A DNA stretch of 21,472 nucleotides from a virus: positions 1-21,472 of the IMG/VR virus record IMGVR_UViG_3300044630_003285; one strand, given 5' to 3'. Position 1 is the first letter of the stretch. Each line of letters begins with the position of its first letter. Below are positions 2 to 21,472 of this stretch, one piece after another. The notes beneath the pieces were generated by a model, which worked only from the letters and a program-made list of their open reading frames with translations, did no database searches and was not told where the DNA came from. Position numbers and translations under genes: made by a program.

Positions 2-3000
2 GTTAATTTACCAGCGGCAACATTTATAGCAAGTGGTTCGGCAACTGCATCTTTTCAAGAAGGTGATTTATTGGTTAATACAAATACTAGAATTCAAGGT
101 AATTTAATAGTTGATGAATCTATTTTTGCTGACCAAATTATTGTAAATATAGTTTCATCTTCGATAATATTTTCATCTGGTTCAAATATATTTGGTAATA
201 CAGACGAAAATATACAACAATTTACAGGATCTGTAAGAATACAGAGTGAATTAATTGGTAACAATATTACCGGTTCATCATTTACTGGTTCATTTACTGG
301 TTCTTTCTTTGGAGATGGTAGAGATATATTTAACCTACCTCAAGCAACAAAATTATCAACAGGCTCAATAACCGCATCGGTAACACCTGATTTTGGATTT
401 AAAGTAGAATCGGTAGATAGTGGTTCACAATTTACAGGTAGTGTTGCTATAACTGGTAGCCTAAGAATAACAGCAACATCGGGTTCATTGATATTAGAAT
501 CTTCATCGGTATATTATGGCGAAGGTACTTATTTAAGAAATATTCCAAGAAATGCGTTATCAGATGATGCTTTAATATCTACTGAAATTAAATCTGGATC
601 GGTAACCGCATCAGTATCACCTGATAGGGGGTTTGTTGTAAAATCATTAGAATTTGGCGCATATTTTAGTGGTAGTATCACTTCAAGTGGAAATATTCAA
701 GTTCAAAGCGGCTCGTTCTTTAGTGGTAGTGGTCAGGGATTATTTAATATTCCACTATCTGCTTTAAATATAGATTCATTAGTAGCGACAAGAATAGCTT
801 CCGGTTCAGTAACCGCATCCGTATCTCCGGATTTTGGATTCAGAGTAATATCAACTGAAAGTGGTTCTCAATTTACAGGTAGCTTATTTGTAAGTGGGGC
901 AAGGGGCATTGAAATCGTATCGGGTTCATCTTATTCTGGTAGTGGTGCTAGGTTATTTGATATACCTGTATCGGCTTTGAAAGATTTAGACCTTAGTAGA
1001 ATTAAATCTGGGTCCGTAACTGCATCAATTTCTCCAGATAAAGGATTTGTTGTAAATACATTTTCCACATTTAGTGGAAGTATGATAATTACTGCATCGG
1101 CTACATACTACCCATCAGAATCAATTGAAACGGTATTTGATGTAACCACCGATGGTGTTTTATCATACAATTTTACAGGCGCTGCAGTTGGTCCAAATCC
1201 AACACTAACATTGGTTAGAGGTATAACTTATGTTTTTAATTTAAATGTAAGTGGACATCCTTTTCAAATAAAAACATCAAAAGTATCCGGTACCGGTAAT
1301 TTGTATAATGATGGTGTAACTAATAATGGAACGCAGGTTGGAACTCTATTATTTACAGTGCCGCTAAACGCACCAAATACACTTTATTACAACGACCAAT
1401 TTTTATCGGCTTTATCAGGAACTATTAATATAGTAGATGCGTTATTGCAAAAAGATGGGGGAGTATTAATTTCGGGCAGTTTGCATGTAAGTGAGGTTAT
1501 TAGAGCAAGAGAATTTACCGGTTCTTTTAGTGGTTCATTTTTTCAAGGTGATGGAGGTGGGTTATTCAATATCCCATTCTCAGCATTTACCGGTGATTCT
1601 TCTAGAATTGCTAGTGGTAGTGTTACCGCATCCGTATCTCCGGATTTTGGGTTTATAGTTGTATCTACTGAAAAGGGTTCTCAATTTACTGGAAGCATAT
1701 CCGTATCAGGTTCAATTGATGTAGTTAATATTACGGCAGTCTCTATGAGTGCGTTTGAAGTTAGTGGTTCATTTAAAGGAGATGGTAGTAGATTAACAAA
1801 TATAAATGTACCACCTCAAGTAGCAACACAAATAGTATCTGGATCCGTAACTGCATCTGTTTCTCCTGATTCTGGATTTATTGTAACATCAGTTGATTTT
1901 GGGTCCACTATAATAGGAAATACGGTAATTAGTGGTAGTTTAATTGTAAGTGGTGCTAGAGGTATAGAAATCGTATCTGGTTCATCTTATTCTGGTAGTG
2001 GTGAAAGATTATTCAATATACCTAGAGCAGCTTTAACTCCGGACGCATTATTATCTACCGAAATTAAAAGTGGTAGCGTAACTGCATCAGTATCGCCTGA
2101 TTTTGGGTTTAGAGTAATTTCGGTTGAAAGCGGTTCTCAATTTACGGGTTCTTTATTCGTAAGTGGTTCTAGAGGTATAGAACTTGCATCCGGTTCATCT
2201 TATTCTGGTAGTGGTGCTAGATTATTTGATATACCACTATCTGCATTAGCTGATTTAGACCTTTCAAAAATATTTAGTGGGTCTGCAACGGCATCAATTT
2301 CTCCTGATAGAGGGTTTGAAGTATTTGCGGCAACATCTAACTTTTCTGGTTCAGTATCGGCATCCGTATTTAGTGGTAGTGGTGCGGGGTTATTTGATAT
2401 TCCATTCTCAGCTTTATCAGAAGAATTAAAAAGAATAGCAAGTGGTAGTGTAACTGCATCGGTATCTCCAAATGAAGGATTTAAAGTAGAATCTTTAGAA
2501 AGTGGTTCACAATTTACTGGTTCTTTATTTGTAACCGGTGGATATATTAGAGTTGAAACAGGTTCATTCTTTAGTGGTAGTGGTGCCGGATTAAATAATA
2601 TTCCTCGTTCGGCATTAACCTTAGACGCATTAATATCTACTGAAATTAAAAGTGGTAGTGTAACTGCTTCGGTTAGTCCTGATGAAGGATTCAAAGTAAT
2701 TTCTGTACAAAGTGGTTCACAATTTAGTGGTAGTTTATTTGTAAGTGGTGGATATATTAGAGTAGAGACAGGTTCATTCTTTAGTGGTAGTGGTGCTGGA
2801 TTATCTGATATTCCGGAATCAGCATTATCATTTAAAATTAATAGAATCGCAAGTGGTAGTGTAACGGCATCTATTTCTCCTGATTATGGATTAAGAGTAA
2901 ATACATTCTCTACAATTAGTGGAAGTTTTATAGTATCATCATCGGCAAGAGAATTGGCATATTATGATATAGATACTGTATTTAATGTGACAAATGCTGG

Positions 3001-6000
3001 AAGTAGTGCGTATAATATAAGTAATAGATTAGTAAGTGGTTCAAACCCAACTTTAACTTTAGTTAGAAATGTAGAATATGTATTTAATGTAAATGCTTCT
3101 GGACATCCATTTTGGATTAAAGAAGTTAGTAGTACTGGTACTAATAATTCGTATGATTATTGGGTAACTAATAACGGCGACGATGTTGGTGTTATAACAT
3201 TTTTAGTTTCTGGAAGTGCACCTAATACATTATATTATAATTGCCAATTACATGGTTCAATGGCGGGTACTATTAACGTAGTTGATGCATTATACGTTCC
3301 AGCTGAAATAAAATTAATTGGTGATACAAAAGTAATTGGAGCAGTAACTGCATCAGTATTTAGTGGTAGTGGTAAAGGATTATTTGATATTCCTTTCTCA
3401 AACATTACTGGTGATGCGGTAAGAATCGCTAGTGGTAGTGTAACTGCATCGGTAGCACCTAATTTTGGATTCAGAGTAGCATCATTTGTAAGTGGTTCTG
3501 ATTTTAGTGGAAGTATTAGAATTGATTCGTCATCTTTCATTTATTCGGAAGGTACGTTTTTAAGAAATATTCCACGTTCGGCATTAACCGAAGATGCATT
3601 AGCCTCATCTGAAATCAAATCGGGTTCAGTAACAGCATCGGTATCACCGGTATTTGGATTCGTAGTAACAACGCCGTTTACATCATCGGTAAGTGAAAGT
3701 TTCTTTTTTACACAAATAGCATCTCAATTTACGGGTTCAATATCCGTATCTGGTAGTTTATTTGTAAATGATACAAGCGGAGGACTATTTATAAATTCAT
3801 CATCATTTATATTTGCCGATGGAACATATCTTAGAAATATTCCTCGTTCAGCATTAACCGAAGATGCATTATTATCATCATTTATTGCATCTGGTTCGGT
3901 AACAGCATCGGTAAGTCCTGATTTTGGGTTTAAAGTAATAGCAACTGATATATTTAGTGGTTCTATTTTTGGTTCACAATTTACCGGAAGTGTTGATGTT
4001 AGTGGTAGCGTTAGAGCGTTTACATTCATTGGAGATGGTTCTCAATTAACAAATGTACAAGCAGCAGCATCTCCATTGATAGCAAGTGGTTCGGCAACAG
4101 CATCAGTAGCAAGTGGAGAGAGATTTATAGTAACAACCGGTGCAACTGGAAGTGGAGTAGATACTCAATTTGGTTCTCAATTTACCGGAAGCGTTGACAT
4201 TAGTGGTAGTATTAAGGCTCAATTTATATTGGGAGATGGTACTTTTATAACAAATGTACAAGCAGCAGCTGCACCATTCATTGGTAGTGGTTCTGCAACA
4301 GCATCGGTAGCAAGTGGAAATACATTTGTAGTAACAACTGGAGCTACTGGCTCAGCTATCGGTTCTAGATTTACTGGTTCAATTGATGTTAGTGGTAGTA
4401 TTAGGGCATTCAATTTTGTAGGAGATGGTTCTCAATTAACAAATGTACAAGCATCAGCAGCACCTTTGATAGCAAGTGGTTCGGCAACGGCGTCTGTACA
4501 AAGTGGAATACAATTTGTTGTTACAACCAAAGGTAACTTTTCACCAGTTGGTTCAAATTCTGGTTCTTATTATGGTTCTGTATTTACTGGTTCTGTAATT
4601 ATTAGTGGGTCAATATCAGCATCTCGTTATGATGGAGATGGTGGCGGATTATTTAATATACCAGCATCAGCATTAGAAGATTTGCAATTAGATAGAATAC
4701 AATCTGGTTCTGGTAGAGCAATAATAGATCCAGAACAATTAGATGTAAATGTACCAATAACAGCGGCACTTTATATAGGTGATGGTGGTGGATTATTTAA
4801 CATTCCTGCAAATGCATTGCAAGACCTTAAATTGGATAGAATTATATCCGGTTCGGTTGAAGGCGTGATTTCTCCAAACAAAGGATTGGAAGTAAATACA
4901 AATGTAAGAATATTTTCCGGTTCATTGACTGTAAGTGGAAGTATATTTGTAAGTGGAGGAAATGTAATAGCAGCATCTGGTTCTTCATTCATTGGAGATG
5001 GTAGCGGATTAAGAAATATCAATATTGCTAATTTGGCATTTGAAACTTCTCTATTACAATCTGGATCTGTAACCGCCGAAATTTCTCCAAATTTAGGATT
5101 GGTTGTAAATACCTCAGCATCTATACAGGGTGATTTGAACGTATTGAATAAAATATTGGTAAATAATATTACAGCAAGTAATGTTATTAAATCTCAATTA
5201 TTTACCGGTTCATTCTTAGGTACATATAATTTCCAAGGAGTAGGACCAACTGCATCAGCAGAATATGATATTTTAAGATTTAATCCAACACAAGGATATT
5301 TCATACCACAACCTGAAACTTCATTAACCGAAACGGTATCATTCAATAATGTAAGTACATTAACAATCGTACACAATTTAGGAATTAGATATCCAATGGT
5401 TCAGGTTTACGCCACCGGTTCGGAAGACCAAATTTTACCTGGCACAATAAAATCAATTGATGATGATACTATTCAAATTCTATTTAGTGGATTGACTAGT
5501 GGGCATGTTGTAATTGGTAGTGGTGGTTCTTTAATTAATGGTAGTATAAATGGTGATAGAGTATTTGGTGAAGTGTTATCCGCATCATATGCGAGAAGGG
5601 CAACACTTGCAGATGCTGTGACTGGATTTGATTCGGCATCATTGGTATCGTTATCTGCATCTTTGGCAAACGCAAATGCATATGTAAGAAATGACCAAAC
5701 GGCATCAATGGCCGTATTTAGTGCGGTAAGTTCATCTTACGCATTAACAGCATCATACGCATTAAACGCATCGCAAGGCGGAGGAACTGAATTGCGTATA
5801 TATCAAACAAGTTCATTAGTAAAAGCACAGGTAGGAAAAATTCATTTTACTGGCTCTGGTGTTGATGTAGTAGCATCTGGTTCGGATGGTGTATTGGTAA
5901 CTATTTTAGGTGGTGGTGGCGCTGGTGCTTCTGCTCAAACTGCATCTTATATTCTTTCGGAAGATGTAGATGGTCCATTAGGAATGAATAGTGTACAATT

Positions 6001-9000
6001 TGCAGTATCAGCACTTACCGCATCGTTTGCGTTAACTACACCAACATCTGATACATCTTCATTCTTACAAATTAACACAGACCAAACAATAAATGCATCG
6101 TTAGTAATTAGTGCTAGTTTAGGTGTAAGTGGTAGTTTCTTTCTAGGTAATTTAACATCTGGTTCATCAGAAGATGTTGTTGTTTGGAATAGTACAACAA
6201 AACGATTAGAAAGAAGAAATATAGCAGCGGCAGTGGGTTCATCTGGAACATCTGGTACATCAGGAACTTCAGGTGAAAGTGGTTCTTCAGGAACATCAGG
6301 TACAAGTGGAACAAGTGGTTCTTCAGGAACATCAGGTACAAGCGGTATCGATGGAACATCGGGTACATCCGGAACAAGTGGTACATCCGGTACAAGTGGC
6401 ACTTCGGGTACTTCTGGTACAAGTGGTAGTGATGGTTCTTCTGGAACATCGGGAACTTCCGGCACAAGCGGAACGTCTGGAACATCAGGAACTTCTGGTA
6501 GTTCTGGAACAAGCGGTACAAGTGGCACGAGTGGTACATCTGGTACATCTGGTACATCTGGTACATCAGGTAGTTCCGGCACAAGTGGTACTTCCGGTAC
6601 AAGAGGAACGTCTGGAACATCAGGAACTTCTGGAACATCAGGAACTTCTGGAACATCTGGTAGTAGTGGTACATCCGGTTCAACCGGCTCAGCTGGTTCA
6701 TCGGGTACATCAGGAACTTCTGGTACATCTGGAACAAGTGGAACTTCAGGAACTTCAGGAACTTCAGGTAGTGTGGGTACTTCTGGTACTTCTGGAACTA
6801 GCGGTACAAGTGGCACGAGTGGGACATCAGGAAGTGATGGAACATCGGGAACGTCTGGTTCAAGTGGAAGTGGTGGAACATCGGGTACTTCCGGAACGTC
6901 TGGTAGTGGTGGTGAAAGCGGCTCATCTGGTACATCCGGTAGTGGAGGTTCTTCAGGAACATCAGGTACATCAGGTATAAGTGGTTCAAATGGAACATCG
7001 GGAACTTCAGGTACTTCAGGTACATCTGGTTCTACTGGTGAAGCGGGTTCATCCGGAACATCGGGCACAAGTGGTTCATCAGGAACGTCAGGTTCAACCG
7101 GTTCATCGGGAACCTCTGGTACTTCTGGCTCATCTGGTACTTCCGGTACAAGTGGTAGTGATGGTACATCCGGTAGCTCAGGCACATCAGGCACATCAGG
7201 AACATCTGGTACTTCCGGTACAAGTGGTAGTGATGGAACATCGGGTACTTCGGGAACTTCTGGAACATCTGGCTCATCAGGAACTTCTGGAACATCTGGA
7301 ACATCTGGTACATCAGGAACTTCAGGAACTTCGGGTAGTGATGGTTCATCAGGAACTTCTGGAACATCTGGCACTTCTGGTACTTCTGGTACCGAAGGTT
7401 CAGCAGGAACATCAGGAACTTCAGGTATAGATGGAACTTCTGGCACATCGGGTTCAAGTGGTACTTCTGGTAGTGATGGAACTTCTGGTACATCAGGTAC
7501 TTCAGGAGAAAGTGGTTCATCGGGAACAAGTGGAATAAGTGGTTCATCAGGAACTTCGGGTACCTCTGGTTCAGATGGTACATCAGGAACATCGGGAACT
7601 TCGGGTACATCAGGTATAAGTGGTTCGGATGGAACTTCGGGTACCTCTGGAATTGACGGGTCATCCGGAACAAGTGGAATAGATGGTACATCAGGAACTT
7701 CGGGAACATCCGGTTCAGATGGAACTTCAGGAACATCAGGAACTTCAGGAACATCAGGATTAGATGGAACATTCTTCGGTTCATCAGGTACATCTGGTAC
7801 TTCAGGAACATCAGGTACTAGTGGGTTGGATGGTAGCAGTGGAACTTCAGGTACCTCAGGCACATCAGGATTAGATGGAACTTTATTTGGAAGTAGTGGA
7901 ACTTCTGGAACTTCAGGCATAGATGGAACTTCTGGTACATCTGGAACTTCTGGTACATCAGGAACTAGTGGAATTGATGGCTCATCCGGAACATCTGGAT
8001 TAAATGGCACATTCTTTGGTAGTAGTGGAACATCAGGTGAAAGTGGAACTTCGGGTACATCCGGAGAAAGTGGTTCATCGGGAACAAGTGGAACTTCTGG
8101 TACATCAGGATTAGATGGAACTTTATTTGGAAGTAGTGGTACTTCGGGAGAAAGTGGTACTTCAGGAACTTCAGGTACTTCAGGAGAAAGCGGTTCATCG
8201 GGAACTTCAGGTACTTCGGGAACATCGGGATTAGATGGAACTTTATTTGGAAGTAGTGGTACATCCGGAGAAAGTGGAACTTCTGGTACATCAGGAGAAA
8301 GTGGAACTTCTGGAACTTCTGGCACAAGCGGAACATCAGGATTAGATGGAACTTTATTTGGTTCATCAGGAACTTCGGGAACAAGTGGTACATCAGGTAC
8401 TTCAGGAGAAAGCGGTTCATCGGGTACTTCCGGTACAAGTGGAACATCAGGATTAGATGGAACTTTATTTGGAAGTAGTGGAACATCGGGTACATCTGGA
8501 ACATCAGGCACTAGTGGATTGGATGGTAGTAGTGGAAGTTCAGGTACCTCAGGCACATCAGGATTAGATGGAACTTTATTTGGTTCATCGGGAACTTCAG
8601 GAACATCTGGTGAAAGTGGCACGAGTGGAACATCAGGAACTTCAGGAACATCAGGAACTTCAGGAACGTCAGGATTAGATGGAACTTTATTTGGAAGTAG
8701 TGGAACATCAGGAACTTCGGGTACTTCAGGTACAAGTGGAGTTTCCGGTTCATCAGGAACAAGTGGAACTTCAGGAACATCAGGATTAGATGGAACTTTA
8801 TTTGGAAGTAGTGGTACATCAGGTACATCGGGAACAAGTGGAATAAGTGGTTCATCTGGTACATCTGGAACTTCCGGTACAAGCGGAACATCCGGACTAG
8901 ATGGAACTTTATTTGGAAGTAGCGGTACATCAGGAATAAGTGGAACTTCTGGCACATCTGGCTCATCTGGAACTTCTGGTACATCTGGAACAAGCGGAAC

Positions 9001-9874
9001 ATCCGGATTGGATGGGACTCTATTTGGTTCATCTGGAACAAGCGGAACATCTGGAGCAATGGGGTCAACGGGTTCTTCCGGAGAAAATGGTTCATCAGGA
9101 ACATCGGGTACATCGGCACCTGGATTTTCATCAGGTACTTCTGGTACTTCTGGCACTTCTGGTTCTACCGGAAGTAGTGGTACATCCTTTTTTGGAGTTA
9201 CATCCGGAACTTCTGGTACATCCGGAACAAGTGGAATTGATGGTTCATCGGGAACATCCGCACCCGGATTCAGTTCGGGTACATCAGGTACAACGGGTTC
9301 ATCCGGAACATCGGCACCTGGTATAACATCTGGAACATCCGGAAGTGGTGGTTCTTCGGGAACATCTGGATTATTATTATTAACAGGTACAACTAATGAT
9401 GGATTACTAACATATACAAACGCACCTGCAGGCGCTAACGTAGAATCTAATATAACTTTTGATGGGTCTACATTAACAATAGTTGGTAATACAAATCAGA
9501 CAGGTGATATTACATTAACTGGAGGATTGGATGCTAGTACATATTTAGAAGCAACTGCGTATAGAGAAATTTATAGTGATTTAGCAACTGGTGGAAGTGT
9601 TGCAATAGATTGTTCAACTGCAAATAATTTTAGAAGACAATTTAACGCAACGGCCACAGTAACATTCACTAACGCACCTGCTTCTAAGGCATTTGGATTT
9701 ACATTATTGACTGTAAATGCGGGGGCGTATGTGATTACATGGCCAGCATCGGTTAATTGGGCAGGTGGTATTCAACCCGTATTAACATCATCCGGTGAAG
9801 ATGTGTTAGTGTTTTATACATTTGATGGTGGTACAAATTGGTATGGATTTACAATAGCAAAAAATTTAAGTTAA
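2..9874 (+). CDS. Giant modular tail fibre 1, collagen-like (5' partial)
   Basis: This is probably a virion fibre for host attachment. The frame is open to the left edge, and the first codons (IASGSATAS...) already match the internal repeat, so the gene starts upstream; the TTG at 71 is not a real start. At least 3,290 residues are visible. Domains in order: about 21 Ser/Gly-rich beta modules (2-5240) with two inserted cupredoxin-like domains (1118-1441, 2963-3289); an 'HNLG.RYP.VQVY' domain common in phage tail proteins (about 5342-5515); an Ala/Ser-rich stretch (5576-6235); a Gly-X-Y tract (6236-9370); and a C-terminal domain (9371-9871) with ITWPASVNWAGG and DGGTNWYGF, a frequent phage fibre ending. 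There is no signal peptide or membrane segment in the visible part. The stop is 4 bases before the next start. The fibre assignment is from domain recognition; its place on the virion is inferred. Confidence 0.9.
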   Translation, partial: VNLPAATFIASGSATASFQEGDLLVNTNTRIQGNLIVDESIFADQIIVNIVSSSIIFSSGSNIFGNTDENIQQFTGSVRIQSELIGNNITGSSFTGSFTGSFFGDGRDIFNLPQATKLSTGSITASVTPDFGFKVESVDSGSQFTGSVAITGSLRITATSGSLILESSSVYYGEGTYLRNIPRNALSDDALISTEIKSGSVTASVSPDRGFVVKSLEFGAYFSGSITSSGNIQVQSGSFFSGSGQGLFNIPLSALNIDSLVATRIASGSVTASVSPDFGFRVISTESGSQFTGSLFVSGARGIEIVSGSSYSGSGARLFDIPVSALKDLDLSRIKSGSVTASISPDKGFVVNTFSTFSGSMIITASATYYPSESIETVFDVTTDGVLSYNFTGAAVGPNPTLTLVRGITYVFNLNVSGHPFQIKTSKVSGTGNLYNDGVTNNGTQVGTLLFTVPLNAPNTLYYNDQFLSALSGTINIVDALLQKDGGVLISGSLHVSEVIRAREFTGSFSGSFFQGDGGGLFNIPFSAFTGDSSRIASGSVTASVSPDFGFIVVSTEKGSQFTGSISVSGSIDVVNITAVSMSAFEVSGSFKGDGSRLTNINVPPQVATQIVSGSVTASVSPDSGFIVTSVDFGSTIIGNTVISGSLIVSGARGIEIVSGSSYSGSGERLFNIPRAALTPDALLSTEIKSGSVTASVSPDFGFRVISVESGSQFTGSLFVSGSRGIELASGSSYSGSGARLFDIPLSALADLDLSKIFSGSATASISPDRGFEVFAATSNFSGSVSASVFSGSGAGLFDIPFSALSEELKRIASGSVTASVSPNEGFKVESLESGSQFTGSLFVTGGYIRVETGSFFSGSGAGLNNIPRSALTLDALISTEIKSGSVTASVSPDEGFKVISVQSGSQFSGSLFVSGGYIRVETGSFFSGSGAGLSDIPESALSFKINRIASGSVTASISPDYGLRVNTFSTISGSFIVSSSARELAYYDIDTVFNVTNAGSSAYNISNRLVSGSNPTLTLVRNVEYVFNVNASGHPFWIKEVSSTGTNNSYDYWVTNNGDDVGVITFLVSGSAPNTLYYNCQLHGSMAGTINVVDALYVPAEIKLIGDTKVIGAVTASVFSGSGKGLFDIPFSNITGDAVRIASGSVTASVAPNFGFRVASFVSGSDFSGSIRIDSSSFIYSEGTFLRNIPRSALTEDALASSEIKSGSVTASVSPVFGFVVTTPFTSSVSESFFFTQIASQFTGSISVSGSLFVNDTSGGLFINSSSFIFADGTYLRNIPRSALTEDALLSSFIASGSVTASVSPDFGFKVIATDIFSGSIFGSQFTGSVDVSGSVRAFTFIGDGSQLTNVQAAASPLIASGSATASVASGERFIVTTGATGSGVDTQFGSQFTGSVDISGSIKAQFILGDGTFITNVQAAAAPFIGSGSATASVASGNTFVVTTGATGSAIGSRFTGSIDVSGSIRAFNFVGDGSQLTNVQASAAPLIASGSATASVQSGIQFVVTTKGNFSPVGSNSGSYYGSVFTGSVIISGSISASRYDGDGGGLFNIPASALEDLQLDRIQSGSGRAIIDPEQLDVNVPITAALYIGDGGGLFNIPANALQDLKLDRIISGSVEGVISPNKGLEVNTNVRIFSGSLTVSGSIFVSGGNVIAASGSSFIGDGSGLRNINIANLAFETSLLQSGSVTAEISPNLGLVVNTSASIQGDLNVLNKILVNNITASNVIKSQLFTGSFLGTYNFQGVGPTASAEYDILRFNPTQGYFIPQPETSLTETVSFNNVSTLTIVHNLGIRYPMVQVYATGSEDQILPGTIKSIDDDTIQILFSGLTSGHVVIGSGGSLINGSINGDRVFGEVLSASYARRATLADAVTGFDSASLVSLSASLANANAYVRNDQTASMAVFSAVSSSYALTASYALNASQGGGTELRIYQTSSLVKAQVGKIHFTGSGVDVVASGSDGVLVTILGGGGAGASAQTASYILSEDVDGPLGMNSVQFAVSALTASFALTTPTSDTSSFLQINTDQTINASLVISASLGVSGSFFLGNLTSGSSEDVVVWNSTTKRLERRNIAAAVGSSGTSGTSGTSGESGSSGTSGTSGTSGSSGTSGTSGIDGTSGTSGTSGTSGTSGTSGTSGTSGSDGSSGTSGTSGTSGTSGTSGTSGSSGTSGTSGTSGTSGTSGTSGTSGSSGTSGTSGTRGTSGTSGTSGTSGTSGTSGSSGTSGSTGSAGSSGTSGTSGTSGTSGTSGTSGTSGSVGTSGTSGTSGTSGTSGTSGSDGTSGTSGSSGSGGTSGTSGTSGSGGESGSSGTSGSGGSSGTSGTSGISGSNGTSGTSGTSGTSGSTGEAGSSGTSGTSGSSGTSGSTGSSGTSGTSGSSGTSGTSGSDGTSGSSGTSGTSGTSGTSGTSGSDGTSGTSGTSGTSGSSGTSGTSGTSGTSGTSGTSGSDGSSGTSGTSGTSGTSGTEGSAGTSGTSGIDGTSGTSGSSGTSGSDGTSGTSGTSGESGSSGTSGISGSSGTSGTSGSDGTSGTSGTSGTSGISGSDGTSGTSGIDGSSGTSGIDGTSGTSGTSGSDGTSGTSGTSGTSGLDGTFFGSSGTSGTSGTSGTSGLDGSSGTSGTSGTSGLDGTLFGSSGTSGTSGIDGTSGTSGTSGTSGTSGIDGSSGTSGLNGTFFGSSGTSGESGTSGTSGESGSSGTSGTSGTSGLDGTLFGSSGTSGESGTSGTSGTSGESGSSGTSGTSGTSGLDGTLFGSSGTSGESGTSGTSGESGTSGTSGTSGTSGLDGTLFGSSGTSGTSGTSGTSGESGSSGTSGTSGTSGLDGTLFGSSGTSGTSGTSGTSGLDGSSGSSGTSGTSGLDGTLFGSSGTSGTSGESGTSGTSGTSGTSGTSGTSGLDGTLFGSSGTSGTSGTSGTSGVSGSSGTSGTSGTSGLDGTLFGSSGTSGTSGTSGISGSSGTSGTSGTSGTSGLDGTLFGSSGTSGISGTSGTSGSSGTSGTSGTSGTSGLDGTLFGSSGTSGTSGAMGSTGSSGENGSSGTSGTSAPGFSSGTSGTSGTSGSTGSSGTSFFGVTSGTSGTSGTSGIDGSSGTSAPGFSSGTSGTTGSSGTSAPGITSGTSGSGGSSGTSGLLLLTGTTNDGLLTYTNAPAGANVESNITFDGSTLTIVGNTNQTGDITLTGGLDASTYLEATAYREIYSDLATGGSVAIDCSTANNFRRQFNATATVTFTNAPASKAFGFTLLTVNAGAYVITWPASVNWAGGIQPVLTSSGEDVLVFYTFDGGTNWYGFTIAKNLS
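1118..1441 (+). other. Cupredoxin-like domain 1 of fibre 1, copper ligands lost
   Basis: About 108 residues sit inside the fourth repeat module. They contain NPTLTLVRGITYVFNLN, SGHPFQIKT and NTLYYNDQFLSALSGTINIV. The pattern parallels the second domain at 2963-3289. The first histidine (codon 1256-1258) is kept. The positions that are Cys, His and Met in domain 2 are Asp (1394-1396), Leu (1403-1405) and Leu (1412-1414) here. The fold is assigned by motif recognition. Copper binding is not expected, so this copy is probably structural or a binding domain. Confidence 0.65.
2963..3289 (+). other. Cupredoxin-like domain 2 of fibre 1, copper ligands intact
   Basis: About 109 residues are inserted in the eleventh repeat module. 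They contain NPTLTLVRNVEYVFNVN, SGHPFWIK and LYYNCQLHGSMAGTINVV. The ligand set expected of a type-1 copper site is present: His (3104-3106), Cys (3242-3244), His (3251-3253) and Met (3260-3262), with the last three spaced C-x2-H-x2-M. This matches the order in small blue copper proteins, though the His-Met spacing is shorter than in plastocyanin. The fold and copper binding are inferred from motifs. Confidence 0.7.
7757..9034 (+). repeat. 12-copy 111-base (37-residue) super-repeat marked by GLDGTLFGSS
   Basis: Twelve copies of GL(D/N)GT(L/F)FGSS begin at 7757, 7868, 7997, 8108, 8228, 8339, 8450, 8561, 8672, 8783, 8894 and 9005. Nine of the eleven spacings are exactly 111 bases; the other two are 129 and 120, longer by whole triplets. 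Each marker carries one extra Phe between Gly-X-Y triplets, so 37 residues equals 12 triplets plus one. The first 23 bases of the marker are identical in eight copies (7868 and 8108 to 8783). The two outermost copies at each end (7757 and 8894/9005), and 7997, differ. Confidence 0.95.
9116..9331 (+). repeat. Four periodic six-residue interruptions at the end of the fibre 1 Gly tract
   Basis: Four hexapeptides replace Gly-X-Y triplets: APGFSS (9116-9133), FFGVTS (9188-9205), APGFSS (9260-9277) and APGITS (9314-9331). They start 72, 72 and 54 bases apart. Each has glycine in its third position instead of its first, and the GTS register then resumes. They hold the only prolines of the tract. Confidence 0.88.
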
Positions 9875-10782: not shown

Positions 10783-11226
10783 ATGTATTTACGAATTATA
10801 AATAATGAAATCAGTTATCCTTATACAATTAAGGATTTAAAAGCTGCGCATAGAAATATTACATTCCCAAATGAAATTGGAGAAGAAACTATGACTCAAT
10901 TTGGTTTATATGAAGTTGAACAAACTCCAAAACCAAATGATTACACAAAAAATATTACCGAAGGAACGCCAATATTAGTGGATGGTGTATATTATCAAAA
11001 TTGGGTTCAAGTAAATGCATCCGAAAGTGAAATAGATTACAGATTAGAAAATCAATGGTTTGTTGTTAGAGAAATTCGAAACGAATTATTATCAGAGTGC
11101 GATTGGACGCAATTATCGGATATTCCATCCGAAACAAAAGTAATTTGGTCTGAATACAGACAATCTTTAAGAGATATCACATCTCAAACTAATCCATTTA
11201 ATATAACTTGGCCGGTTAAACCTTAA
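10783..11226 (+). CDS. Tail fibre assembly chaperone-like protein
   Basis: The protein has 147 residues. The N-terminal part (about 12-52: YPYTIKDLKAAHRNITFP then MTQFGLYEVE) and the C-terminal part (about 95-147: VREIRNELLSECDWTQLSD, WSEYRQSLRDITSQ, NPFNITWPVKP) match the pattern of phage tail assembly chaperones, as I recall the Phage_tail_APC family. These proteins help fold or attach tail fibres and are usually coded next to the fibre. Here the gene begins one base after the PKD/DUF285 protein's stop and lies between the two giant fibres, so its client could be either fibre or the adhesin. It is acidic and soluble with no membrane segment. The family call is firm; the client is unknown. 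Confidence 0.85.
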   Translation: MYLRIINNEISYPYTIKDLKAAHRNITFPNEIGEETMTQFGLYEVEQTPKPNDYTKNITEGTPILVDGVYYQNWVQVNASESEIDYRLENQWFVVREIRNELLSECDWTQLSDIPSETKVIWSEYRQSLRDITSQTNPFNITWPVKP

Positions 11227-11901: not shown

Positions 11902-14900
11902 ATGGAATATTTAGGCGGTAACCCTAATGGTTTAAATCAACAAACTAAAGATAAAATTTCTTTATTTGTAAGCGGGAGTAGAATAGCTAATTTCTCATCT
12001 CAATCGGTAGATGTAGTTGGTAATTTTAGTGCATCTAAGATTCAAACTGATGAAATTGATTCTTTTGGTAATAATCCGCTTCAAATAAACACAAATACAC
12101 AAATTAGTGGTTCGATTAATATTTCATCATCAATATCCGCATCTTTATTTAGAGGCGATGGTGGTGGTTTATTTAATATAAGTGCCGCATCTATTGGTGA
12201 TTTAGATAGATTAAAATCTGGTTCGGCAACTGCAATAATTTCTCCAAATAAAGGACTAATAGTTAATACTGACTTAACAGTAGCAGGTACAATAAATGCA
12301 ACTGAATTAAAAGTAATTTATATTTCATCATCTATAATTTATTCATCTGGTTCAAATAAATTTGGTGACTCTCAACTCGATAAACAAGAATTCACAGGAA
12401 GTGTTGGGATAACAGGTTCACTATCATTTGGAGATGGTTCATTGCAACAAGATGGTAGTACAAATGAAGTTTTAGTTTATAATTCATCAACTGGTAAAAT
12501 TGGTATAAAAACCGCAGCGGCAACTTCCGGTACATCAGGAACTTCCGGTACATCTGGTACTTCGGGTACAAGTGGAACATCTGGTACATCTGGTACTTCG
12601 GGTACAAGTGGAACATCTGGATTAGATGGTTCTTCGGGAACATCAGGAACTTCTGGTACATCCGGCACTTCAGGAACATCAGGAACTTCCGGAACATCTG
12701 GAACATCTGGTTCTTCCGGAACATCGGGAACATCAGGCAGTAGTGGAACTTCTGGTACAAGTGGTTCATCAGGAACATCTGGTACTTCTGGTTCTACTGG
12801 TAGTAGTGGTACAACCGGGTCATCTGGTACTTCTGGTTCATCCGGAACAAGTGGCACGCGTGGAACATCAGGAACTTCTGGAATAAGTGGTTCATCTGGA
12901 ACATCGGGATCAAGAGGTACATCGGGAACTTCTGGAATAAGTGGAACATCAGGAACAACAGGCTCAGCCGGTACATCTGGTATAAGTGGTAGTAGTGGTA
13001 CATCTGGCTCTGGAGGAACTTCGGGAACTTCGGGAACATCTGGAATAACGGGAGCAGGTGGTGGAACTGGTTCGGCCGGTTCTGCAGGAACTTCCGGTAC
13101 ATCAGGAACTTCCGGAACATCGGGAATAACTGGAGCTGGCGGAACTGCAGGTTCATCGGGAACATCAGGCACATCTGGTACATCGGGAACAAGAGGAACT
13201 TCTGGAACTTCGGGAGTAAGTGGAGCTGGTGGTGGTAGTGGTTCAGCGGGTACGTCAGGTTCATCGGGAACTTCGGGAACTTCTGGAACATCAGGAACTT
13301 CTGGAACATCTGGAAGCAGTGGTTCATCGGGTACTTCAGGTACTTCTGGATTAGGGGGTTCATCAGGAACTTCCGGTACATCTGGAACTTCTGGTACAAG
13401 TGGAGCACAAGGTTCTTCGGGAACATCGGGAACTTCTGGTACAAGTGGTTCGGCAGGAACTTCTGGAACTTCTGGTAGTGGAACTTCTGGTACATCGGGA
13501 ACATCAGGAATAAGTGGAACATCTGGTACATCTGGAATAAGTGGTACATCGGGAACATCTGGTACAAGTGGAAGTGCCGGTACATCTGGAATAAGTGGTA
13601 CATCGGGAACTTCTGGCACAAGTGGAACTAGAGGAACATCTGGTACATCTGGAATAAGTGGAACTTCTGGAACTTCAGGAAGTAGTGGTACATCAGGTTC
13701 ATCTGGAACAAGTGGAACTCGAGGAACATCGGGAACATCAGGAATATCTGGCACATCGGGAACTTCTGGTTCAAGCGGTACATCGGGAACATCTGGCACA
13801 AGCGGTACTAGAGGTACATCTGGCACAAGTGGAAGTAGTGGTACATCGGGTTCTTCTGGCACAAGTGGAAGTAGTGGTACATCAGGTTCTGCTGGTACAT
13901 CCGGATTATTGGCATTAACTGGTACAACTGATAATGGTGTAATTACTTTAAACGGAAGTGCACCAAACGGGACAGTAGAATCAAATTTAACTTTCAATGG
14001 TACTCTATTAACAGTAACTGGTAACGCTACAATTACTGGTGACCTTACTGTAAGTGGTACTACAACATATATTAATACAACAACTTTAAATGTAGGTGAT
14101 AACATCATTACATTAAATGCAGATATTGGAGCATCAACGGCACCAACTGAAAATGCCGGCATAGAAATTAAGAGAGGTAATGCGGCAACAAAACAATTCA
14201 TTTGGAATGAAAGTACGGATAGATGGTCATTTGATGATACTATAAACGTATCAGGTAATGTAGTTCTTAGTGGTACAATTGATACTGGAATAGGTGCAAC
14301 TGAGGTTTATTTAATGGACCAAAACGTAAGAACTACCGATGCTGTAACATTTGCAACCGTTAATACCGGACAAGGTGCTAATGAATTATATGCAATGGAC
14401 CAAAATGTTCGTACAACGGACGCAGTAACATTTGCAACTGTAAATACTGGACAAGGTGCAAATGAATTGTACGCAATGGACCAGGCGGTTCGTACAACCG
14501 ATGCTGTAACATTTGCAACCGTAAATACCGGACAGGGGGCTACGGAAGTTCATTTAATGAATCAAAATCTTAGAACAACCGATTCACCTACATTTGTAAA
14601 CGTAACATCAAACTTAAGTGGTATAGCAACATCGGCTAATCTACTAAACGCATTGGCTAACTATGGTTGGAATGCAGCAACCTTACCAACTTCATTTGGA
14701 CAAGGTATAACAAACGCATTTGTTTCATCGGCAGAAGGATTTCCAAATTATGGTTCTGTAATGATGATGAGAACATATGCTGGTGGTGGTGGTTCATTAC
14801 AATTATATACACCATATAGTTCTGTTTATGGTGGTACTAGATTACAAGCTCGTTTTGGTGATTATGGTGTAAGTAGTGGTAACTCTTGGACTGCATGGAG

Positions 14901-17900
14901 ATTGATATTAGATAGTGTAAGTGACCCTTATGCATATAATATGAATCAGTATGTGAGAACAACTGATAATGTAACATTCAATCAGGTAATATCTTCAACT
15001 GGAGTTTATGCGGCCGGTACATCTGGATTTTATAGTACAACATATGCTGGTAATGTTAGAAATCCAATTTGGAGATTTGGAAATGCCGATGGATATGGTA
15101 TAAGTTACTTCCAAGGAAATGCTGGAGCTTATAGTAACTTAGATACCATTGGTATTCATATGGGAACAGCAACAGCTGCAGGTTCTCAATGGCAGTTCAA
15201 TCAAGCAGATAATTCATTTAGGTCATCAGGTCCAATATACTTTACAAACTATCTTTATGGTAATAGTAAGCAAGCATTAGATACAACTGATTCTTATTTA
15301 AGATTAAACCAAGCTAATCAATTTAGTAGTGGTACTTATACCCCATATAACTTTAGAGCAGATGGTACAATTTATGTAGGTGGTACATCATACTATATTA
15401 ATAGTAGTACATCTCGCTTAAATGCACTCGAAACATCAGATAGAGTTGTAATTGGCGGAAACTTTAGCAATCAAGCATATAGTTCGGTAGCTTCTACTAG
15501 ATTACATTTTGGTGGAGGTGATAGTGATGCAAATTCAAATTATTACATAGGTACTAACTTAGAAAACTTTGGAGGTAATTATACTAAGTTAGATTTAAGA
15601 TGGCACACTGGTATTCGTATGGGTGCACAAGCTGGCTATGGTGGGGTTAGGATATTTGATTCAGAAGATTTAGGAACTAGATTATTTTCAGTTGGTGAAG
15701 GTGATACGCATGTAAGGGTAACAAATAATTTATATGTTGCAAACAATTTATTTTTTACCAACTATCTTTATGGTAATAACAAACAAGCACTAGACACAAC
15801 CGATGGTTGGTTGAGATTAAACCAGGCTAATCAATTTAGTAATGGTACTTATACTCCGTATGTATTAAGAACGGATGGTGGATTTGAATCATATGGTTCA
15901 ACAAGATTAAGAAATAATTATAGTAGTGGAGCAACCATTATATTAGATTTAGATAACGCATCTCATTATGGTTTAATAGATTTTAGAGAAAATAATTCAC
16001 ATAAAGGATTTTTTGGATTAGGTGGTACATCACAATCATTTGGAACATATGCAGCATATACCGCAGATGGTTTCAGTTGGAATCACGATGGCGCTGGTAA
16101 AATGATTATTTCCAATAGAGGTGCATCAAAAAGAATTGATTTAAATACAGGAACTGAAGGTAATTCCAATTTTACTACATTAAGAATGACAAATCAGGAT
16201 GTTTTTATAACTCCTGATTCCAATACCGGTAATTTACGTTCACCACTTTTTTATATTCAAAATGATACAACTTATTTATGGAATAGTAATAGAATAGTAG
16301 TAAACCAAGTAACATTCCCTTATAGAGAATGGGATTTTGGTTGGGGAGCACATGGTACTGGAAGTGGTACACAACCAATGTCATTTAGAATGTGGGATAA
16401 CTACACTCAAGGTGGAGCACCATCTTCATATGGTACATTGATTGAATATTATGGGTTGGTAGGTCACCAACATGACCAATTTTATTTCTATCAGGGTGAA
16501 ATTCTTCATAGATACGGGTGGTATGGTACTACAAACTGGCAAAGTGGATGGAGAGCAATGTTGCATGCTGGAAACTATTCTGGATACGCAATTCCTGTTT
16601 CTGGTGGTATAAATATGACCGGTTCTTATGGTTTGAATGATAATAGATTATACCTAAGAACTAATGGTGATACAAACCACTTTTTATGGAATGCAGCCGA
16701 TGATTGGGAAGAATTGGTATTTTATTCTGGAACTGGATTTAGAATAGCAGGTAGTAATGGTGGTAACTATGCACAAATAACCACATCAGGTATCAACGCC
16801 ACAAATATGACCATTGGTGGTGCACAGGTTTGGTATAATAGTGGTGGCTGGATGGCCGATTTCGCTTCTTATGGATTTACTAGACATTGGGGCATTAATG
16901 TTTCTGGTGGAGAGTTTGTTACTTTATATGCAAGTGGACAAGTATCTACATTAATTGATGGTAGTTATTTTGCTGGGGAAAATAATGGATTCTTCTCATT
17001 GAATGGTTCTAATCAATACACATCAAGAGTAGGTTTCTCTAATAGTGGTGGTGGTGTTGCAAACTTCAACGCACCAATCCGAATCAATACAAACAATAAC
17101 ATTTATTTAGATTACAACTACGGACAATCTATTGTGGGGGTTTATACATCTACTAGATACCAGGGTGTATTCGCAATGGGTGATTCATATAAATTGGCAA
17201 TTGATGGTTCATCTCCTGGTTCTTTATATGGTTTAGCTTGGTCACATCCAAACGCTGGAGGACAAGCATCATTGGGTTTAAATGACCACGGCTTGTTGGT
17301 AATGAACTATGGTACTACATTTGCGGGAATTTCTTCTAGAATTTGGGCAAGAGACCAAATGAACGCACCAATTTACTATGATAGAAATACTGCATTTTAT
17401 TTGGATGGTGATTCTAATTCTAGATTAAATCACGGAAGATTTGTTGGTTCATCTGGATATTATTCATTATTATTAGGACCTGATACATTGGCAACGAATG
17501 GTTCGACTTCAGTATATCCTGATGGTGATAGATATGGATTGGTATTGAATGCACCATATTATCCACATCTTTATATTAATTCATACGCAGATAGTGGTAA
17601 TACAACGCATGGTGGTGTTTTATCATTCACTGGTATTAAAACTGCCGGCGGATTTAGAAGATGGGGCATTGGTATTGCAAACCGAAACCCGGATGAAATG
17701 AGTTTTGGATGGTATGACAACAACTATAACCCACATTATGGTGTGGGAATTAACTGGTCATATCCAGCATCTGTTTGGGTTGATACTGGTAATAATTGGT
17801 ATGCTAGAGGTTCAATGAGAGCACCAATATTCTATGACCAAAATGATACTGGAAGGTATATGGACCCCAACGGACAATCATATATTGTTAATTTATGTGT

Positions 17901-20212: not shown

Positions 20213-21472
20213 ATGGCAGAAAGAATCGTATCACCTGGCGTATTCACAAGAGAAAATGACCTATCCTTCTTAGCTCAAGGAGTGGGAGAAATTGGAGCAG
20301 CATTTATAGGACCTTTTAAACAAGGACCTGCATTCGTTCCAACAATCGTAAGAACGCAATCAGAATTTGAAGATATCTTCGGAACACCTGATGGAACTTA
20401 TTATACAGAATATGCAGTACAAAATTATTTAAGAGAAGCTGGACAAGCAACAATCGTAAGAGTTGCCGGAATTGGTGGTTACTCACAGGCAGCACCTTTG
20501 GGTATATTGGCATCCGGTTCTCAAGGCAACAAACTAGTTGGAGTTTTATATTCAACTAATTTTGGCGATGAGGGTGTTGGATTTTTAAACGCTTCTACTA
20601 ACATTACAAGTAGTGCATCGGTATCCGGTTCATTTGTAATATCAGGACTAATTGGTTCTGGTTCTGCAGCAACTAGTATATCAGCATCAATTTTTCAAGA
20701 AGCTACAAACGATATTTCTGACGTATTTGGTGAATCTCCATTTGGTGCTAAAGCAGCTTATGGATATTTGTATTTTGAAAGTTCATCATTAGGATTTAAA
20801 AATGATAGTACTCCACATGGTGTACAAATATACGAAGTTAACCTACCAACACAGGTGTATGGTGATGCTAGTGAAGCAGAAACTCCAATCGTAGTATCTC
20901 AATTAATTAGTGGTGAAAGATATAATTTATTTAAATTCGAAACAATAGGACATGGTACATTATATAATACTAAATTTAAAGTTGGTATTTCTAATGTAAA
21001 AGCAGCTGGTGAAGATGGTTCAACTGACTATTCAACATTTACTGTAACTATTCGTTCATACGGTGATACTGATAAGAGAAAGAGTGTAGTTGAAACATAT
21101 AATAACGTAAACTTAGACCCTGCATCTCCTAACTATATAGCCAGAAGAATTGGTGATAGAAAGTTAACAATTGATTCTAATGGAAAATTAACCGAAACTG
21201 GTGATTACTCAAATAAATCAAACAATGTAAGAGTAGTTGTACAAGACGCTAATTCTAATATCTTAGGACCAGGTTCTTATCCAATATCAGCAGCACCATT
21301 TGGACACGCAGCATATGTGAATCCAATTAAAACAAATTCTACAATAGAAGCAAATTGGGTGCCTGCCGTAAATTACCAAACAGGTTCAGCAAATAACACA
21401 TCATCATCTCCGGTTTATTTTTCTGGATTTGATTTTGAAGATGCATATAAAGCAATAGATAACAACCAATAT
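20213..21472 (+). CDS. Tail sheath protein, T4 gp18-like (3' partial)
   Basis: The frame is open from ATG 20213 to the right edge, 420 codons with no stop. The start MAERIVSPGVFTRENDLSFL and the following GEIGAAFIGPFKQGPAFVPT and EDIFGT match T4-type contractile tail sheath proteins. NLDPASPNYIARRIGD (about residues 300-315) is also typical. Sheath subunits polymerise around the tail tube and contract to drive it through the host envelope. T4-type sheaths are usually 650-700 residues, so roughly a third is missing. Residues about 126-165 hold a Ser/Gly/Ala-rich insert (SSASVSGSFVISG...) like the fibre modules. The leader AATCGAAGAAATAAA lacks a clear Shine-Dalgarno sequence. Confidence 0.93.
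   Translation, partial: MAERIVSPGVFTRENDLSFLAQGVGEIGAAFIGPFKQGPAFVPTIVRTQSEFEDIFGTPDGTYYTEYAVQNYLREAGQATIVRVAGIGGYSQAAPLGILASGSQGNKLVGVLYSTNFGDEGVGFLNASTNITSSASVSGSFVISGLIGSGSAATSISASIFQEATNDISDVFGESPFGAKAAYGYLYFESSSLGFKNDSTPHGVQIYEVNLPTQVYGDASEAETPIVVSQLISGERYNLFKFETIGHGTLYNTKFKVGISNVKAAGEDGSTDYSTFTVTIRSYGDTDKRKSVVETYNNVNLDPASPNYIARRIGDRKLTIDSNGKLTETGDYSNKSNNVRVVVQDANSNILGPGSYPISAAPFGHAAYVNPIKTNSTIEANWVPAVNYQTGSANNTSSSPVYFSGFDFEDAYKAIDNNQY

Follow-up and report, generated by a model that had tools for sequence, protein, structure and literature searches.

Predicted Cupredoxin-Fold Inserts, One With a Complete Type-1 Copper Ligand Set, in a Tail Fibre of an Uncultured T4-Like Phage

INTRODUCTION

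Type-1 copper cupredoxins, including amicyanin, plastocyanin, pseudoazurin, and rusticyanin, are defined in sequence by four metal ligands in the order H...C-x2-4-H-x2-4-M/Q/L. Amicyanin, the periplasmic partner of methylamine dehydrogenase, has the spacing C-x2-H-x2-M. Type-1 cupredoxins have H-N around the first His, and multicopper oxidases have an HPFHxH motif or an HPF-x-I/L stretch after the same His. Here we describe two homologous inserts, D1 and D2, predicted to share this fold, in a phage tail fibre (fibre 1) encoded by IMG/VR virus record IMGVR_UViG_3300044630_003285, positions 1 to 21,472 (the window, 21,472 nucleotides in all). On the combined grounds of homology, predicted fold, ligand conservation, and repeated loss of the site without loss of the fold, our preferred explanation, which we hold to be probable, is that both are cupredoxin inserts on the fibre of a T4-like phage, that D2 can probably bind copper and would serve in attachment or fibre stability, and that D1 has the fold without the site. 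D2 shares the His...Cys-x2-His-x2-Met spacing of amicyanin but, lying inside a phage fibre among tail genes, is no amicyanin in function. It is paired with the metal-less copy D1, and both are inserts in a fibre rather than periplasmic electron carriers. Instead of H-N the family has GHPF[WY]IK around the first His, and the GHPFWIK of D2 is closer to the multicopper oxidase pattern.

Homologous domains occur in phage and cellular proteins of other design. The cyanophage baseplate wedge tail fiber connector, PHROG 677 (gp9/gp10-like; syn9, P-SSM4, S-SM1), carries a homologous domain (E 9.2e-24) with the ligands His, Cys, His, and Met (HCHM, one letter per ligand position). The match of fibre 1 covers the C-terminal domain only (profile 306-410 of 412), and fibre 1 is not itself a PHROG 677 protein; the connector has its one copy at the C terminus, following a T4 gp9/10 domain (PF07880) at the N terminus, whereas fibre 1 has two inserts in long modules. 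In tail fibre-like proteins of P-SSM2 and P-SSM5 the domain is 51-54% identical, with HCHM and with collagen-like repeats in the same protein, but by the family profile there is one copy, in a fibre architecture unlike that of fibre 1. Bacterial lipoproteins, mostly from Bacteroidota, have domains 35-55% identical, also with HCHM, and are cellular surface proteins, not virion parts. The At5g54830-like domain (PF25489) is matched by 32 of 65 family members (best 5.4e-7), although D1 and members tested singly fall below its curated cut-off; its setting is a plant membrane protein. The closest published concept is that of metal ligands on a fibre in the form of iron-binding HxH motifs, described for an Alteromonas phage in the context of the Ferrojan Horse hypothesis (PMC11705849). 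D2 likewise carries metal ligands on a fibre but differs in ligand chemistry and fold, and no HxH motif occurs in residues 1-1900 of fibre 1.

TWO HOMOLOGOUS INSERTS IN THE FIBRE SHAFT

Fibre 1 consists of N-terminal beta modules, a long collagen-like region of SGTSGTSG repeats, and a C-terminal tail-fibre domain. Near the insertion points successive modules are spaced 55-77 residues apart, and at D1 and D2 the spacing jumps to 202 and 193 residues, which marks both as inserts in an otherwise regular shaft; the sequence between them consists of ordinary fibre modules. The inserts measure ~108-113 residues and align end to end with 56% identity, the global alignment score being 293 against 21 ± 7 for shuffled sequences (maximum 63, n = 500). 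Module spacing and alignment thus bear out an earlier reading of the DNA by itself (the sequence-only reading), which had proposed two homologous inserts in the beta modules. The residues it had named at the ligand positions are also as described: D2 has the full His, Cys, His, and Met set, all four codons lying in the frame of the fibre 1 open reading frame (ORF), and D1 keeps the first His alone, with Asp, Leu, and Leu at the other positions (Table 1).

The D2 ligands fall within the sequence definition of a type-1 site. Because the D1 residues are His, Asp, Leu, and Leu, D1 is to be read as a cupredoxin fold and not as a type-1 copper protein. The first 1,900 residues of the ORF contain a single Cys, 6 His, and 4 Met, and with these residues so rare the D2 set is not a product of scattered chance. 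An assembly or frameshift artefact was considered as the source of the degenerate D1 and rejected, because the reading frame is uninterrupted and, of 30 other conserved positions, 28 are intact. The sequence of D2 recurs with 100% identity in a second contig (L001), which ends before its D1 region, and in the viral contig search no other contig carried the exact D1 variant, HDLL.

PREDICTED FOLD AND RELATIONSHIP TO COPPER PROTEINS

For D2, AlphaFold2 was given 65 aligned relatives, each of them a translation of a fetched locus; D1 was modelled in parallel. Each model has a mean predicted local distance difference test score (pLDDT) of 94.9 and a predicted template modelling score of 0.87. In Foldseek comparisons with the PDB, 50 of the 50 listed matches, for D1 and D2 alike, were cupredoxins or cupredoxin-containing proteins: AcoP (the best match of D2, E 4.2e-5), rusticyanin, plastocyanin, Cu nitrite reductase, CueO, laccases, bilirubin oxidase, multicopper oxidases, a caa3 oxidase chain, and the cupredoxin-fold protein SufI. 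The sequence-only reading, which had called both copies cupredoxin-like and would have fallen with any other predicted fold, is borne out by the models: D1 and D2 are by prediction Greek-key beta sandwiches of the cupredoxin type, and so is the family as a whole, whose members at present go under the labels hypothetical protein or fibre connector. The fold is shared by BFVD models of cyanophage tail proteins, with template modelling (TM) scores of ~0.8-0.9. In BFVD it also appears in environmental genomes of Pithovirus and Marseillevirus, among small 'beta-sandwich proteins' (TM ~0.65-0.73).

Sequence profiles point in the same direction. A profile of the family searched against the PDB finds Cu nitrite reductase first (E 6.5e-4), followed by plastocyanin, amicyanin, pseudoazurin, and rusticyanin at weak E-values, and in the alignment to amicyanin the Cys, His, and Met are in register. 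A relative from an archaeal bin aligns to pseudoazurin (E 0.0056) so that both His ligands and the Cys are in register and a Met stands opposite a Met; pseudoazurins have two nearby Met, and which of them corresponds is ambiguous. Family members match the curated models TIGR02657 (amicyanin, 1.2e-7), TIGR02656 (plastocyanin, 2.3e-6), and PF00127 (Copper-bind, 1.2e-6), as well as TIGR03095 and TIGR02375; unlike these relatives, D1 by itself matched no curated cupredoxin model. Beta sandwiches are common in fibres, and by chance convergence an immunoglobulin-like sandwich might bear His, Cys, His, and Met incidentally. We regard this as extremely improbable, for every fold match listed is a cupredoxin, curated models of copper proteins recognise the relatives, and the ligands are conserved and lost together (see below).

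With its complete ligand set, D2 can probably bind copper. Should the site instead hold Zn, Fe, or some other soft metal, it would act as a structural clip and not as a type-1 copper center. The metal does not follow from the ligands by themselves, and cupredoxins can bind Zn or Hg in vitro; nonetheless H...C-x2-H-x2-M within a cupredoxin fold is characteristic of type-1 copper, the relatives match models of copper proteins, and a different metal is in our estimation unlikely.

CONSERVATION, DUPLICATION, AND LOSS OF THE SITE

Among distinct domain sequences, 94 of 99 from viruses and 57 of 59 from bacteria retain HCHM, figures that are biased upward because some of the scans used patterns overlapping the ligands. 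Two less biased controls gave HCHM in all 17 of the 17 named phages picked by whole-domain tblastn and in 72 of 79 copies from scans seeded with ligand-less copies; the set is kept in >90% of distinct copies, down to ~38% identity. Of the 99 viral copies, 94 contain exactly one Cys and 5 contain none, so that no disulphide can form within the domain. An HCHQ set occurs in one bacterial copy, small and lipoprotein-like (L097 4004-4297); an axial Gln is a known type-1 variant, as in stellacyanin.

Related fibres carry two to three copies in similar slots, the first two ~600 residues apart. Across many phages, copies in slot 1 group largely apart from those in slot 2, and the trees show only 4 changes of slot label among two-copy fibres, which indicates that the duplication is old. 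With the ligand columns masked, the D1 of the window pairs with an intact D1 in another contig (L008; support 99/96), and its site loss is therefore recent, after the split from this sister. The trees thus support the duplication followed by loss that the sequence-only reading had suggested and refine it to an old duplication with a recent loss in the D1 of the window. Five degenerate copies from the first scans take 3 changes on the ligand-masked tree, which thus does not show a single loss event, but the approximately unbiased test does not reject a topology that unites them in one clade (p 0.325); two or more independent losses among them are a reasonable, if not certain, reading of these sequences.

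In viruses as a whole 11 distinct degenerate states were found, each with the fold retained. Ten of the 11 lack both the Cys and the second His, the exception being HAHM. Degenerate copies have 24-28 of 30 other strongly conserved positions intact as against 1-2 of 4 ligands; a pooled Fisher value of 1e-6 for ligands versus other positions overstates independence, the copies being related and chosen for Cys loss. In the first two scans each fibre with a degenerate slot 1 also has slot 2 or slot 3 occupied by an intact copy; several of the degenerate loci from the last scan are too short for companion copies to be judged. Further metal-less copies (DNQM, NSDV, MDNA, SSYM, YSFM) lie in other viral genes (L304, L335, L344-L346, L283, L294).

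These patterns bear on whether the site is ever filled. The fold might serve solely as a compact adhesion or spacer domain, a metal-free scaffold whose inherited Cys, His, His, and Met are perhaps never loaded with copper in the virion. The recurrence of ligand-less states with the fold kept, the maintenance of some degenerate slot-1 variants in several contigs, and the assembly of virions in a copper-poor cytoplasm all favor such a scaffold; useless residues should drift, however, and the persistence of HCHM at such low identity, together with the intact companion copies of the first two scans, leaves it in our view a doubtful alternative. Several other points weigh against a copper-binding D2. 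The Foldseek TM-scores to solved structures are moderate (~0.45-0.6, with a root-mean-square deviation of ~5 Å), and the first His is shifted by 1-2 residues in some profile alignments (plastocyanin, amicyanin). The window's own D2 matches no Pfam or NCBIfam model, although relatives do, and as a single sequence its PDB matches are at noise level, the family alignment being needed to raise them. The repeated metal-less copies, finally, demonstrate that the fold is useful without the site. Whether D2 binds copper in the virion is, all told, evenly balanced.

DISTRIBUTION OF THE DOMAIN

The domain is a widespread family and not an oddity of one fibre. A tblastn search found it in 337 phage records, nearly all of them cyanophages and often in a baseplate/tail-fibre connector of the gp9/10 type, with Prochlorococcus podoviruses and one actinobacterial lake phage also among the matches, and IMG/VR adds hundreds more viral-contig copies. 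A search of the plasmid collection found no relative. Bacterial carriers are mostly Bacteroidota, in which the domain occurs in short, single-domain lipoproteins or C-terminal to CHRD domains. At loci L084-L107 and others (Flavobacterium, Marivirga, Polaribacter) the lipoproteins have one cupredoxin-like domain at the C-terminal end, preceded in several by CHRD repeats and in one by DUF7282 repeats, and it is possible that the Bacteroidota lipoproteins are surface copper proteins. In cyanophages the large structural protein adjoining gp9/10 (T4-GC 399) holds one more copy, highly divergent and apparently lacking annotation, in which H...C-x2-H-x2-M is present (Table 1). A literature search, with most subscription journals outside its coverage, found no paper tying a cupredoxin to phage fibres or baseplates, and the domain is apparently unrecognised there, a known fold in a new setting. 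Proteomic studies of S-PM2 and Syn9 reported structural proteins of unknown function (PMC2984593).

TAIL-GENE SETTING OF FIBRE 1

As a virus record the window is incomplete. Its source is an uncultured T4-like aquatic phage, and the start of a tail sheath gene shows the tail to be contractile (Table 1). Its tail sheath is closest to those of Microcystis and Flavobacterium phages (~38% identity), and megablast of the whole window returned a short repeat match only. A second fibre, of 2418 aa (11902-19158), combines collagen-like repeats with an endosialidase chaperone domain (Peptidase_S74) at its C terminus. Long minus-strand ORFs at 5947-9156 and 12477-14201, rich in Pro, Val, and Asp, are not genes but mirror the SGTSGTSG coding repeats.

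Table 1. Positions of the features discussed; coordinates refer to the window unless a locus is named.
Feature	Position	Strand	Remarks
Fibre 1 ORF, 3290 aa, open at 5' end	2..9874	+	Tail-fibre PHROG matches to C-terminal part; module analysis
D1, cupredoxin-fold domain, degenerate ligands His/Asp/Leu/Leu	1118..1441	+	pLDDT 94.9; Foldseek matches are cupredoxins
D1 His, sole ligand position retained	1256..1258	+	
D1 Asp at Cys position	1394..1396	+	
D1 Leu at second His position	1403..1405	+	
D1 Leu at Met position	1412..1414	+	
D2, cupredoxin-fold domain, complete H...C-x2-H-x2-M	2951..3289	+	pLDDT 94.9; Foldseek matches are cupredoxins
D2 ligand 1, His (CAT), GHPFWIK motif	3104..3106	+	Conserved in 98% of 99 viral copies
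D2 ligand 2, Cys (TGC)	3242..3244	+	Sole Cys of first 1900 ORF residues
D2 ligand 3, His (CAT)	3251..3253	+	
D2 ligand 4 (axial), Met (ATG)	3260..3262	+	
Tail fibre assembly chaperone-like gene (Phage_tail_APC)	10783..11226	+	Tail-gene setting
Tail sheath gene, start only	20213..21472	+	Marks contractile-tailed phage
Protein beside gp9/10 (T4-GC 399) with divergent copy	L209 6322-10485; also L215, L221, L222, L223		

PROPOSED ROLE AND IMPLICATIONS

Cytoplasmic copper is tightly buffered and free copper is vanishingly low, and for this reason D2 would be expected to load copper after release: the fibre would leave the host cytoplasm as an apo-protein, and D2 would acquire its metal outside the cell. 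Tail fibres are usually trimers, and each insert may form a rigid beta-sandwich beside the fibre shaft, in three copies if fibre 1 is trimeric. The copper-loaded rigid domain could then act as a displayed module for attachment or stabilisation, and D1-type copies as metal-free scaffold or contact domains. That copper itself matters for attachment is a tentative suggestion.

Two more specific roles deserve consideration. Type-1 sites elsewhere are electron-transfer centers and the bacterial relatives are surface lipoproteins, so a redox role can be imagined in which D2 is an electron donor or acceptor at the cell surface, or a scavenger of copper or oxidants; since no redox partner domain was found in fibre 1 or the window, host-surface contact is ranked above electron transfer, and with the site also repeatedly lost in slot 1 we consider a redox role very unlikely. 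As a special case of attachment, a putative host outer-membrane copper-uptake receptor might recognise the copper on the fibre, a copper Trojan horse. Display on a fibre, the mostly aquatic habit of the related phages, and the published iron parallel (PMC11705849) speak for it. However, D1 and D2 sit in N-terminal shaft modules and not at the C-terminal tip, and a buried type-1 site presents copper poorly, so that such a mechanism seems improbable.

A broader proposal, which we offer as speculation, extends to other phages: tailed phages of lakes and oceans may display copper-loaded type-1 sites on fibres and baseplates, the copper state may aid attachment or triggering, and the metal-less paralogues may be recurrent contact domains. 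Cultured phages such as syn9 or P-SSM4 would allow a direct test. Even without metal, the family shows that a metal site has repeatedly turned into a plain scaffold. If the site does hold copper, each fibre or baseplate would bear several copper atoms in an abundant class of aquatic phages to which well-studied cyanophage isolates belong. Copper would then be a virion metal cofactor additional to the iron discussed in the literature, and phage attachment or stability would be linked to a metal that is scarce yet toxic in water.

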